Shown one piece after another: positions 57,479-61,886 of a stretch of DNA of 64,000 bases. The stretch comes from Fusobacterium varium. Its GTDB lineage: Bacteria; Fusobacteriota; Fusobacteriia; Fusobacteriales; Fusobacteriaceae. The position numbers and the translations under genes are program-made. The notes under the pieces are model-generated. The model did no database searches. It had not been told where the DNA came from and worked only from the letters and a program-made list of their open reading frames with translations. How positions within the stretch are numbered: the stretch's first letter is position 1; each line of letters opens with the position of its first letter. The stretch is from the NCBI GenBank assembly GCA_002356455.1, contig AP017968.1, positions 2,852,001-2,916,000 on the forward strand. The letters run 5' to 3'.

Positions 57479-57724
57479 ATGAACAGTAATACAGAACTGT
57501 TTTTCAAGATAATAGCTACAACAGGAACTTTTTTATTGGCATATCACAAGTATATACTTTCACTGTTTGATAAAAAACTGGACAAGAGAGATTGTGAAAA
57601 AGAAAGACTGTATGCAGAGAAATTCAGAATAGAAAATATAAAAACACTAACTGATGGAATAAAAAGAATAGAGGAGAGAATGACAAGAATAGAAAAAGAA
57701 TTGATGAAACAATACAAGAATTAA
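57479..57724 (+). CDS. Small holin-like membrane protein (hypothetical)
   Basis: The 81-residue protein has one membrane segment (LFFKIIATTGTFLLAYHKYIL) followed by a charged coiled coil (IENIKTLTDGIKRIEERMTRIEKELMKQY). This is the shape of small phage holin-like or hemolysin XhlA-type proteins, but no family can be claimed. No clear Shine-Dalgarno sequence precedes the ATG. It lies after a hairpin and a broken frame. It may be a phage remnant or unexpressed. Confidence 0.45.
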   Translation: MNSNTELFFKIIATTGTFLLAYHKYILSLFDKKLDKRDCEKERLYAEKFRIENIKTLTDGIKRIEERMTRIEKELMKQYKN

Positions 57725-57767: not shown

Positions 57768-57793
57768 GTTCTCTTTAATGTATAAAGGCGAAC
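57768..57793 (+). repeat. Left inverted repeat (crossover-like site)
   Basis: Arms GTTCTCTTTA and AAAGGCGAAC flank the core ATGTAT. The arms are themselves near-palindromic (8 of 10), as for recombinase monomer sites. A partial third copy (CTCTTTAATG then CTATAAA) lies at 57741-57757. Confidence 0.75.
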
Positions 57794-57816
57794 TTTTACA
57801 TGTTTTAACTTTATCA

Positions 57817-57845
57817 ATTATAATCTCTAAAATTGATAAAGTCAA
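57817..57845 (-). promoter_or_regulatory. Consensus sigma70 promoter inside the invertible segment (OFF orientation)
   Basis: On the minus strand TTGACT (57845-57840), 17-base spacer, TATAAT (57822-57817). A dyad ACTTTATCAATT / AATTGATAAAGT (57808-57819 and 57831-57842) overlaps it and could be an operator. In this orientation transcription would start near 57810 and run leftward, antisense to the holin-like gene. Confidence 0.8.
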
Positions 57846-57918
57846 GATAAAAATATTTTTAGAGAAAACATCCTTAAAAAATGACCCTCTGTAAATAAAG
57901 TAATTACGACTATTTTAT

Positions 57919-57944
57919 GTTCGCTTTTATACATATAAGAGAAC
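57919..57944 (-). repeat. Right inverted repeat (crossover-like site)
   Basis: Read on the minus strand, arms GTTCTCTTAT and AAAAGCGAAC flank the core ATGTAT, matching the left repeat at 23 of 26 bases in inverted orientation. It lies 88 bases before the autotransporter start codon. Confidence 0.75.
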
Positions 57945-58032
57945 AATTATTTATTTTGCTGAATTTGAGATTATTATAAATGTAAAAAAAGTTGAATTTG
58001 AAGTAAAAAATATCAAAGGGGGAGAGGAAAAT

Positions 58033-61000
58033 ATGATTAAAGAAATGGAGAAAGCTTTAAAAAGATATCTAAAGGGAAAGAATAGAATAACAATGGGAGT
58101 GGTAGTAGCTTTTTTACTGGGAAGCAGTTTTGCATTTGGAGATGTTACGATAAAATATGATACTGCAGCTTCAACTCTTATTGTACAAGATGATTTAGGA
58201 ACTAATATAGGAACAGTAACAAAAAATCCTGCTGGTGAATTTACCTGGACATTACCAGAAGGAGCAAATATAACTGAAACTGTAAAAATAGATGATACAG
58301 TAAATACAAATAATATTAAAGTAAATATAGTGAACAGTGGAACTATAAGCAGTTCTGGAACTACAGGTAAATCAGGAAATGGATTATTTTCTTATTCTGA
58401 TACTTCAAGTAGTATAATAGGAAATATAACAAATAGTGGAAATATAAGTGGAAACAGTACTGGAGGAGATAGTTCAGGAAATGGAATTTATGCCTGCTCA
58501 GATTCATATATTTCCATTTCAAGTAGTATAATAGGAAATATAACAAATAGTGGAATAATTAGTGGTAGTACTACTGGTAGTAGAAACGATTCAGGAAATG
58601 GAATTTATTCTTCTTCTGTGAATGGAGATAGTACAATAGGAGATATAACAAATAGTGGAATAATTAGCGGAAATGGTTCTAGTAGTACTAGCGGAAATGG
58701 AATTTATTCTAGTTCTTATCGTTTTGATTCTTACCTAGAGAGTAAAATAGATAACATAACAAATAATGGAATAATTAGTGGAAATGACAGTGATGGATAT
58801 GATTCAGGAAATGGAATTTATTCTTATTCTTCTACTACTAATGGTTCTACAAAGAGTAAAATAGACAATATAACGAATTATGGAATAATTAGTGGAAATA
58901 ATAGTAGTAGTGCTGGACATGGAATTTATCTTCGTTCTATTTCTGGTCCGGCAATAATAGAATCAATTTCAAATTATGGTGTTATAATGGGAAATGGCAA
59001 GGGAATATATGTTGATGGAGATTCTAGGTCTAGTTCTAGTTCGGGAATTACTAACTACAATAACTATGGACTTATAATAGGAAGGACACCAGTTAAAATT
59101 GAAGGTGGAATAGAAATTACTAATCCTGAAGGACAGGGAATGGCTGTAACTCTTGATGGAAGTGGAAATATAACTTCTATTGCTTTAGGAACTGGAGGAA
59201 GTACAGGAATATATTCTATAGTGAATACTCAATTAAGAGATAATTTAGGAAGCGCAGTATCATCTGGTGCAGTAGATTCATATGATGTATATACAAGCGA
59301 CCAAAGTATTTCAGATACTATTATCAATGGTGCTGGTGTAAATAGTGGAACAGTGACAATAGAAGCAGATAAGAATTTTTCACTTAATGGCGGAATTATT
59401 AATGCCTATAAAACTGCTGTTACAGTTAAAGATGGAGCTTCATTTACTGGTACAGATGTAACAATCAATGGTGGGGGCTTAGATAAAACTACTCCTGTTA
59501 TTTCTGGAGATTCAGGAGCTAATACAGTAAATATATCTGGAAATTCTTTTATCAATGGAAAAGTTGATTTAGAAGATGGAGATGATACTTTATCTATTGG
59601 AAATTCCACTCAAATCAATGGAGATATAGATGGTGGAACAGGAACTGATACTCTTTATTTTGGTTCAGCTATTGCCAGAGCAGTGGGAAATGATAATATA
59701 AATCTTTTCCATAAAATATCAAATGTGGAAGAAATAAATATAAATCAAAAAGTAACTGCATTTGAAACTTCTGAAATTACAGGAGCAGATAAGATTAATA
59801 TTGGTAAAAATGGGGAGCTTGTATTAAGAATAGATGGAACAAATAGTAATAAACATGCACTTTCCAATGGAAATAGTAGTGGAACAATAGATTCAGATGG
59901 TGGAAAACTTCTTCTTGCGCTTAATGGAGTATCTGATGGAAGTACAATAGATATGGGAATGAATCTTGGAGATGGAATATATGGAGTGGAAAATCCAGAC
60001 ATAGAATATAGAGATTTATTTACTTTAGATACAACTTCATATTTACATTCTATTAGAAAAACTCCTGGTTCTTCAACAATAACAGTTGAAACTAAATCTA
60101 CACTTCCACTGTCACCAACAACACCTGAATATACAAATTATGGGAAATTAAATAAAATATATCAAAGTATGAGGGTTGTAGATGGTGTAAAAGAATTTAA
60201 TGTAGATACTGATGAAAAATTCTCATCTTTTATGGGATACTTAAATGATATCTATGCAGGAAATCCATACTCATATTCTTCTGAACTATCAAGAAAATCA
60301 ATGGGAATGTTCAGAGATATAGCTACTGAAAATTCATTTAAAGCAGATACAGGAAAATGGATGATATACGGCGGACTTACTCATATAGATGGAGGAACTA
60401 AAGATACATACTATGGAAAAGGATACTATACTTATGATATAGGAAGTTCTGATATAGATTCTGATACAAAAATCACAGGAGCATATATGCTTGGAGAGTA
60501 TGGAGTATCTGATGACTTTAAAGCTGGAGTGGCAGTTGGAGGAAACAAGTTTAAATCTGACTTGTCTAATGGCTCAAAAGTTGATGGAGATGCGCTGTAT
60601 ATTGGAGGATATGCTAAGAAGTATCTTGGAAATCTAAAAGTAACAGCAGGAGCAGGATTCCAGTATGGAGATTATGATGCAGACAGAACAGCAGCAGGAA
60701 GAGAAATTACAGAAACAAGAAGCTATTCTTCAAGCTACAATGATTTGACTTATGATATTTATCTGAATGGAAGATATTCACTTAATATTGGAGATAATCT
60801 ATACTTAGAACCTTATGGAACACTGTCATATACATATGTAAAACAGGATGGAGCAGATGAGGGAAATAAAACTTTAGCAATAGAAACAGATTCACAATCA
60901 TTTGACTACACAGTTGGAAAAATGGGAATAGATCTTAAAAAAGTGATACCACATGAAAAAGGAAAGAGTACATTATCAGTTGGAGCAAGCTATACAAAAA

Positions 61001-61251
61001 TACTTGATGGAGCAGATGAGGAATATATCACAGGAAGATTTAAAGGTGGAAGCGACTTTGATATATTAGTTGCCCACAAGAATGAACATAGCTTAGGATT
61101 GAATGCTAAATATGCACTTGAACTGGAAAATGGAATCTTGTTTGATGTAAAAGGAAGCTATGCAATAGAAAGAGATTCACATAATCAATCTGGAAAGAAT
61201 AAAACTGGAGGTGAATGGATAGTTGGAACAGGACTGGGTTATAAGTTCTAA
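58033..61251 (+). CDS. Type Va autotransporter with repeat-rich passenger
   Basis: The 1072-residue protein has the long fusobacterial autotransporter signal (MIKEMEKALKRYLKGKNRIT then a hydrophobic core, cleavage near residue 36). The passenger (about 37-770) includes at least six repeats of about 35-38 residues with the NITNSGIISGN...SGNGIYSSS pattern (58330-59000), a beta-helix design, then a less repetitive part with GGNTDT-type turns. A C-terminal ~300-residue autotransporter barrel (from about WMIYGGLTHIDGG) ends with GTGLGYKF. It is a surface protein, perhaps an adhesin; the ligand is unknown. GGGGGAGAGG precedes the ATG. Its promoter seems to be invertible and OFF in this assembly. 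Confidence 0.93.
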   Translation: MIKEMEKALKRYLKGKNRITMGVVVAFLLGSSFAFGDVTIKYDTAASTLIVQDDLGTNIGTVTKNPAGEFTWTLPEGANITETVKIDDTVNTNNIKVNIVNSGTISSSGTTGKSGNGLFSYSDTSSSIIGNITNSGNISGNSTGGDSSGNGIYACSDSYISISSSIIGNITNSGIISGSTTGSRNDSGNGIYSSSVNGDSTIGDITNSGIISGNGSSSTSGNGIYSSSYRFDSYLESKIDNITNNGIISGNDSDGYDSGNGIYSYSSTTNGSTKSKIDNITNYGIISGNNSSSAGHGIYLRSISGPAIIESISNYGVIMGNGKGIYVDGDSRSSSSSGITNYNNYGLIIGRTPVKIEGGIEITNPEGQGMAVTLDGSGNITSIALGTGGSTGIYSIVNTQLRDNLGSAVSSGAVDSYDVYTSDQSISDTIINGAGVNSGTVTIEADKNFSLNGGIINAYKTAVTVKDGASFTGTDVTINGGGLDKTTPVISGDSGANTVNISGNSFINGKVDLEDGDDTLSIGNSTQINGDIDGGTGTDTLYFGSAIARAVGNDNINLFHKISNVEEININQKVTAFETSEITGADKINIGKNGELVLRIDGTNSNKHALSNGNSSGTIDSDGGKLLLALNGVSDGSTIDMGMNLGDGIYGVENPDIEYRDLFTLDTTSYLHSIRKTPGSSTITVETKSTLPLSPTTPEYTNYGKLNKIYQSMRVVDGVKEFNVDTDEKFSSFMGYLNDIYAGNPYSYSSELSRKSMGMFRDIATENSFKADTGKWMIYGGLTHIDGGTKDTYYGKGYYTYDIGSSDIDSDTKITGAYMLGEYGVSDDFKAGVAVGGNKFKSDLSNGSKVDGDALYIGGYAKKYLGNLKVTAGAGFQYGDYDADRTAAGREITETRSYSSSYNDLTYDIYLNGRYSLNIGDNLYLEPYGTLSYTYVKQDGADEGNKTLAIETDSQSFDYTVGKMGIDLKKVIPHEKGKSTLSVGASYTKILDGADEEYITGRFKGGSDFDILVAHKNEHSLGLNAKYALELENGILFDVKGSYAIERDSHNQSGKNKTGGEWIVGTGLGYKF

Positions 61252-61327: not shown

Positions 61328-61621
61328 ATGACAGAAGGGGAATTTATAAGATTCTATAAAAAGAGAAATGGACTAAAGAATCAGCAGGAAGTAAAAGAAA
61401 AGATAGACTTATTCTGGAATACACTGCTAAAAGTTCTGAATGAAGGTGAAAAGATAACCTTTAAAAATTGGGGAACATTTGAAGAAAAAGAGGTAAAACC
61501 AAGAAAAATAATGATAACTAAAATAAATAAATCTGGTTATACAAAATCTAAAAAGAAGATAAGATTCAGAGCAGGAGCGGGCTTGCAGGATATAGTAAAT
61601 GGAGCTGGTACTGATGAATAA
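61328..61621 (+). CDS. HU/IHF family DNA-binding protein (divergent, 1)
   Basis: The 97-residue protein fits the HU fold: N-terminal helix-turn-helix (EFIRFYKKRNGLKNQQEVKEKIDLFWNTLLKVLNEGEKITFKNWGTFEEKEVKPRK) followed by the beta arm and RAGAGLQDIVNGAG C terminus. It is diverged from housekeeping HU: the usual arm Pro and RNPQTGE are replaced by IMITKINKSGYTKSKKK. It is translated from AAGGGGGA and overlaps the second HU-like gene by 8 bases. It may organise the local DNA or assist site-specific recombination, which is speculative. Confidence 0.82.
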   Translation: MTEGEFIRFYKKRNGLKNQQEVKEKIDLFWNTLLKVLNEGEKITFKNWGTFEEKEVKPRKIMITKINKSGYTKSKKKIRFRAGAGLQDIVNGAGTDE

Positions 61622-61886
61622 GAGAGAATTAGCAAAAGTATACAGTGAAACAAGTAAAGGGGAAATATCAGCAAGAAAAGCGCTGAAAGAAATAGAAGTA
61701 TTTCTTGAAACAATGCAGGAGGCTTTGCAGAAAAGTCATTCATTAATATTTATAAATATAGGAATATTTGAAGTGAAGGAAAGAAAACCAAGAGTAATAG
61801 TCAATCCAGTAACTAAAGAACCTATGAAGATTTATCCAAGAAAAACAGTGAAATTCAGAGAATCTAAAAAAATAAACAAAGGATAA
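61614..61886 (+). CDS. HU/IHF family DNA-binding protein (divergent, 2)
   Basis: The 90-residue protein matches the HU core: NKRELAKVYSETSKGEISARKALKEIEVFLETMQEALQKSHSLIFINIGIFEVKERKPRVIVNPVTKEPMKIYPRKTVKFRESKKI, with the arm (VTKEPMKIYP) closer to normal HU than in its neighbour. The start ATG lies nine bases after GGAG and overlaps the stop of the first HU-like gene. Two tandem HU-like proteins suggest a heterodimer. The gene ends before the right 22-base hairpin. Confidence 0.85.
   Translation: MNKRELAKVYSETSKGEISARKALKEIEVFLETMQEALQKSHSLIFINIGIFEVKERKPRVIVNPVTKEPMKIYPRKTVKFRESKKINKG

Follow-up and report, generated by a model that had tools for sequence, protein, structure and literature searches.

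A 177-base element (positions 57768–57944) ahead of a surface-protein (autotransporter) gene of Fusobacterium varium is very probably one of a set of promoter switches that are spread over the genome and inverted in trans by a catalytic-domain-only tyrosine recombinase, and was assembled in what would be its OFF orientation. The element lies in a 64,000-nucleotide stretch of contig AP017968.1 (C1:2852001–2916000), here called the window. An earlier note on the window had proposed an invertible promoter captured OFF. This proposal is supported by a genome-wide family of inverted site pairs with pair-matched cores, and by an inverted paralogue whose promoter faces its autotransporter gene. The same note described a switch of a single autotransporter. 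The switch itself is supported, but the element is one of 31, and the operon that it appears to control continues into two HU/IHF-like genes.

According to the proposed mechanism, a trans-acting tyrosine recombinase of 198 amino acids would bind the two 26-bp sites of the element. Strand exchange in their matched 6-bp core would then invert the 125-base segment between them. With the promoter directed away from it, as in the assembly, the operon would be OFF. In the inverted state, transcription would start at about position 57902 and pass through the right site into the autotransporter gene and the two HU/IHF-like genes.

Putative recombination sites, segment, and promoter of the element

The left putative recombination site (57768–57793, plus strand, GTTCTCTTTAATGTATAAAGGCGAAC) is composed of the outer half GTTCTCTTTA, the core ATGTAT (57778–57783), and the inner half AAAGGCGAAC. 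The right site is inverted (57919–57944, minus strand). It reads GTTCGCTTTTATACATATAAGAGAAC on the plus strand, where its core, ATACAT, occupies positions 57929–57934. The reverse complement of the right site, GTTCTCTTATATGTATAAAAGCGAAC, is identical to the left site at 23 of 26 positions, and the cores are identical. Re-reading of the sequence confirmed the repeats, their ATGTAT core, and the 125 bases between them exactly as the earlier note had given them. The predicted invertible segment enclosed by the sites spans positions 57794–57918, and close paralogues from the same genome align across it in the same orientation.

The minus strand of the segment contains the promoter TTGACT-N17-TATAAT (57817–57845) at the place where it had been claimed, with the −35 hexamer at 57845–57840 and the −10 hexamer at 57822–57817. 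As assembled, it points away from the autotransporter gene. The −35 hexamer (AGTCAAGA on the plus strand) is invariant across an alignment of 14 paralogues, and the promoter recurs at the same offset in most segments of the site family. The arrangement of inverted repeats around a promoter-bearing segment upstream of a gene is that of an invertible promoter. The segment also contains a promoter-like sequence on the plus strand, TTTACA-N18-TATAAT (57795–57824), which matches at 11 of 12 positions, shares an overlapping −10 with the minus-strand promoter, and is not conserved in the paralogues. Between positions 57945 and 58033, where the earlier note had seen no fitting plus-strand promoter, a search for promoter-like sites on that strand likewise found none.

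An open reading frame of 81 amino acids is positioned upstream of the switch (57479–57724, plus strand), and a membrane segment and a coiled coil can be recognized in it by eye. It is the best-conserved stretch in the three related Fusobacterium genomes that were compared with the window genome (G001, G002, and G007; 3.30, 3.54, and 3.84 Mb). Its product has no match in Pfam or PHROGs, and no match above the cut-off in NCBIfam. The OFF-facing promoter would read antisense to this frame.

Genome-wide site family and its candidate recombinase

A search of the window genome with the site pattern gave 52 matches on each strand, as opposed to none for a reversed-pattern control. The matches form 31 inverted pairs in the window genome and 99 over the four genomes (31, 24, 18, and 26); these counts are lower bounds, with sites that have changed arms (for example GGGCGC) detected only as partners. 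Among seven other congeners, six contain no site and one contains a single match. A generic finder of inverted pairs, applied upstream of 18 giant (RadD-like) autotransporters, returned one already-known pair and otherwise only low-complexity hits. Collections of genome contigs and viral contigs contain no matches to a 20-base site pattern, and a scan of the genome contigs for the autotransporter gave no confirmed relatives; near records may be absent from these collections, and the two results say little about distribution.

Positions 11–16 of the sites are identical within the pair in 97 of the 99 pairs. The within-pair mismatches at these six positions are 0, 0, 2, 2, 0, and 0 of 99, whereas the rates of difference between sites are.20,.02,.58,.42,.00, and.39. 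Arm positions 5–7 and 20 differ within pairs in 30–55% of cases. In the window genome the cores match in 31 of 31 pairs, compared with a permutation mean of 8.7 and maximum of 17, and core identity was not required when pairs were selected. The core variants include ATGTAT, ATACAT, ATATAA, ATCTAT, ATATAC, GTGTAT, and ATGGAT, among others. The crossover region of a site-specific recombinase must match between partner sites; a width of six bases fits tyrosine recombinases, and two bases are characteristic of serine invertases. Because the core is matched within pairs and varied between pairs, and the arms are unmatched, it is interpreted as a 6-bp tyrosine-type crossover and not as a 2-bp serine core. 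As judged from their sequences, the sites are organized as inversion sites of a tyrosine recombinase, with inverted half-sites around a crossover of 6–8 bp that is identical between partners.

One of the two core-mismatched pairs, L188 (G001:C1:1564473–1564649), has the cores ATACAT and ATCTAT and is flanked by one element with each of these cores. It is apparently a hybrid of its neighbours and is predicted to be unable to invert by itself. A class of ten pairs with lengths of 186–199 bases (L095, L197, L221, L232, L177, L185, L200, L226, L230, and L231) is positioned upstream of outer-membrane proteins or autotransporters. No strong sigma-70-like promoter was found in the segments of these ten elements.

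The recombinase had been expected to be encoded elsewhere, and candidate tyrosine recombinases are present elsewhere in the genome, which encodes 13 proteins with a PF00589 domain. The best candidate, referred to as type B, is a catalytic-domain-only tyrosine recombinase of 198 amino acids. It is encoded in two identical copies in the window genome (C1:3156432 and C1:3237238) and in one copy in each of G001, G002, and G007. Type B matches the Pfam profile PF00589 with E = 1.1e-21, and all 10 sequences compared share the catalytic residues R44, H146, R149, H172, and Y181 (type B numbering). By sequence, the candidate thus combines the R-H-x-x-R-H-Y residues with membership in the Phage_integrase family. 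The second chromosomal enzyme of 198 amino acids, type A, is present in the window genome, G002, and G007, and is reduced to fragments with stops in G001. Type B is the best single candidate because it is intact in all four site-bearing genomes; the assignment is made by co-occurrence and catalytic residues. Of the 61 genomes searched, the four with sites were the only ones to yield close orthologues of the 198-amino-acid recombinase (at least 70%); one query of this search consisted of the first 60 residues, and close and distant homologues were still separated. The phage collection contains only distant relatives, with less than 60% identity. Other recombinases of the window genome include type A, plasmid relatives, and other integrases.

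The candidate is similar in size to FimB and FimE, which have about 200 amino acids, and it is meant to work like them, but it is not filed as a member of their family. With the NCBIfam tyrosine-type DNA invertase model NF007370 the candidates reach 14.2 and 14.1 bits, far short of its cut-off of 221. The region of approximately 5 kb that carries the type B gene is present twice in the window genome (L088, C1:3154600–3159640, and L168, C1:3235000–3240446), and a switch, at 3160572, lies about 1 kb from one of the two regions. Two more recombinases of FimB/FimE size are encoded beside an autotransporter on plasmid C2 (L166, 14357–17202), for which no sites of the family motif are listed.

Orientation of the promoters and competing explanations

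The segment of the element at 958543 in G007 is reversed relative to ten paralogues, to which it is 62–73% identical when reverse-complemented and 39–53% identical as is. The outer left half-site, the flanks, and the start of the gene keep their orientation, and the promoter faces the autotransporter. This paralogue constitutes the evidence for the inverted orientation to date, and the window locus is represented by a single assembly.

Orientations were tallied over the four genomes for the 79 elements that combine a strong promoter with a target. Of the 53 strong-promoter elements linked to an autotransporter or a large ORF, 52 have the promoter facing away from the gene, and the exception is in G007. 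Elements with cores not ending in TATAA have 68 promoters facing away and none facing toward the target. In elements with xTATAA cores, three face away and eight of 11 face toward (L072, L096, L212, L216, L224, L198, L202, and L179); some of these elements are orthologues, and the number of independent toward loci is nearer five. Many xTATAA-core sites contain a −10-like TATAAT, which could complicate the promoter calls. The phase distribution is not random. The pattern suggests selection, a core-linked bias in direction, or the use of different enzymes for different cores.

The prevalence of one orientation could also have arisen if an element that once inverted were now fixed, with recombination stopped or negligible and the orientation of the paralogues inherited from an ancestral cassette. 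A single orientation is shared by almost every autotransporter-linked copy, among them the close paralogues with alignments that span the segment; a ratio of 52 to one could mean that inversion is rare or lost; and orthologous xTATAA elements keep the same orientation between genomes. Fixation is nevertheless unlikely, as the cores still match in almost every pair despite the divergence between pairs, which is expected if the pairs keep recombining. Furthermore, all four genomes have intact recombinase genes, and the copy at 958543 in G007 is inverted. It is very unlikely that the present orientation is the expressed one, with the plus-strand promoter-like sequence driving the autotransporter gene and the minus-strand promoter being incidental. 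The plus-strand sequence faces the gene and fits the consensus well, but its −35 decays in the paralogues, whereas the minus-strand TTGACT is retained without change in the alignment of paralogues and is kept across families.

Sites of 26 bp with dyad arms also suit serine invertases such as Mpi or Hin, since hix-type sites have the same length, and two small serine recombinases are encoded on plasmid C3. Inversion of the segment by an enzyme of this class is highly improbable, however, given that the pair-matched core is six bases wide and not two. No small serine invertase was found in the three site-bearing relatives, each of which has only one PF00239 protein, with a length of 456–504 amino acids. 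The features of a Mpi- or Hin-like system, a small serine recombinase that occurs together with the sites and a 2-bp core, are thus not seen in these sequences. The dyad symmetry of each site, and the abundance and linkage of HU/IHF genes, would also be compatible with a promoter that is fixed and flanked by paired binding sites for a nucleoid protein or transcription factor. This explanation is barely credible, because it predicts neither the exact within-pair match of a variable centre flanked by unmatched arms nor an inverted copy.

Predicted switched operons and relation to known inversion systems

Promoter inversion by the tyrosine recombinase would place an operon of three genes under the control of the window element. 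A ribosome-binding-site-like sequence, AAAGGGGGAGAGG (58015–58027, plus strand), can be read ahead of the start of the autotransporter gene. This gene is the first of the operon (58033–61251, plus strand) and encodes 1072 amino acids, with a PF03797 match at residues 800–1035 (E = 4.3e-29). The second gene (61328–61621, plus strand) starts 76 bases past the autotransporter stop and encodes an HU/IHF-family protein of 97 amino acids (PF00216, E = 2.7e-11). It is overlapped by the gene of a second HU/IHF-family protein (61599–61886, plus strand; PF00216, E = 8.4e-18), which has 95 amino acids when counted from the first ATG and a likely start at 61614. The second protein matches HU/IHF chains in the PDB, with a best E of 8.4e-9. 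The two proteins score 44.0 and 64.9 bits, above the curated PF00216 cut-off of 22.4 bits, and belong to the HU/IHF family. They are not classical IHF alpha or beta subunits, as they reach at most 43 bits against equivalog cut-offs of at least 111.

Eight cassettes of the window genome, a set that leaves out the distant cassette at 1744702, have HU pairs 82–100%, barrels 85–99%, and passengers 11–70% identical to those of the window. The pooled dN/dS values of the HU genes are 0.41 and 0.32. The genes look to be kept under purifying selection, and gene conversion is also possible. In eight of the 17 autotransporter-linked elements of the window genome, the examined DNA shows no HU pair shortly after the gene, and some of these eight have HU remnants or lie at the edge of the examined DNA. 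The four switch genomes contain 58, 48, 55, and 56 copies of PF00216. Six of the seven other congeners contain four copies and G003 contains 15; no inverted pairs were found at four HU loci of G003. For 33 of the 53 chromosomal HU genes of the window genome, a switch of the same sense lies no more than 6.2 kb upstream. The random expectation is 2.5, with a maximum of 10 in 2000 trials. DNA inversion probably allows the cell to switch many of its surface proteins on and off, frequently along with a pair of DNA-bending, HU/IHF-like proteins from the switched operon.

The IHF of E. coli is a housekeeping protein encoded elsewhere than its fimS switch, whereas here pairs of HU/IHF-like genes lie inside the switched operons. 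Nucleoid proteins, including IHF, assist the fimS switch (PMC6083910), and it can be hypothesized by analogy that the HU pairs feed back on switching. A broader reading, which is possible but doubtful, is that HU/IHF pairs encoded by the switches act on the switches. A large library of surface-protein cassettes, every one under an invertible promoter of its own and in many cases with its own pair of DNA-bending proteins, would be held mostly OFF. The direction of the recombinase would depend on the core class, and inversion would be subject to feedback from the HU pairs of ON operons; as a result, only a few of the autotransporters would appear on any one cell. The controlling HU proteins would come from the xTATAA elements, the majority of which are in the ON orientation toward HU-only operons.

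Known systems of other bacteria already include an invertible promoter that controls an autotransporter gene, as well as multi-locus invertases. Like the system described here, ipuS of uropathogenic E. coli CFT073 combines an invertible promoter element, tyrosine recombinases, and an operon with an autotransporter, UpaE (PMC6083910). Several recombinases act on ipuS. It is a single element of 260 bp with 7-bp repeats and two of its recombinase genes adjacent (PMC6083910), whereas here about 31 elements with 26-bp sites would be served by a distal enzyme. The ipuS operon includes a LuxR-type regulator (PMC6083910) in place of the HU/IHF-like genes. The Mpi regulon of Bacteroides fragilis resembles the present family in that one trans-acting enzyme serves many surface-gene promoters throughout the genome, in 13 invertible regions (PMC4747536). 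The earlier note had called the tyrosine recombinases Mpi-like. Tyrosine invertases such as Tsr19 do occur in B. fragilis, but Mpi itself is a serine recombinase (PMC4747536), whereas here both the width of the core, 6 bp, and the candidate enzymes indicate a tyrosine recombinase, with mainly autotransporters as targets. Tsr19 (BF2766), a tyrosine recombinase, inverts surface-gene promoters both nearby and at distant loci; it acts on two promoters, compared with about 31 here, and belongs to a different phylum, and the available part of the source mentions no HU pairs for it (PMC4747536).

The lineage, the embedded HU pairs, and the core-dependent orientation bias look new. No description of such switches in Fusobacterium was found in the open-access literature, and the Science 2019 inverton survey may already list some. 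F. varium Fv113-g1, the strain to which the window belongs and an isolate from a patient with ulcerative colitis, has 44 autotransporters, and the main text of its description does not mention inversion, recombinases, or promoters (PMC5720691). If the proposed switching is correct, keeping most autotransporters OFF would explain the upkeep of so many related surface proteins, and neither genome content nor bulk expression would be informative about the surface proteins shown by an individual cell. The HU/IHF pairs in switched operons and the tie between core and orientation may be used as a direct test of how multi-locus inversion sets its direction.

The switches also precede targets other than autotransporters. 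These include HU-only operons and, as judged by eye, likely genes for a sugar transferase, a heptosyltransferase, an MBOAT protein, a Wzz-like protein, outer-membrane proteins, and a GGDEF protein. Some switches follow a conserved row of small genes (L078, 3816–5388) that includes a match to a DnaC-like helicase loader and a weak excisionase-like match. The window retains only the 81-amino-acid frame from this row. The row suggests a mobile element as the origin, or as the vehicle, of the cassettes.
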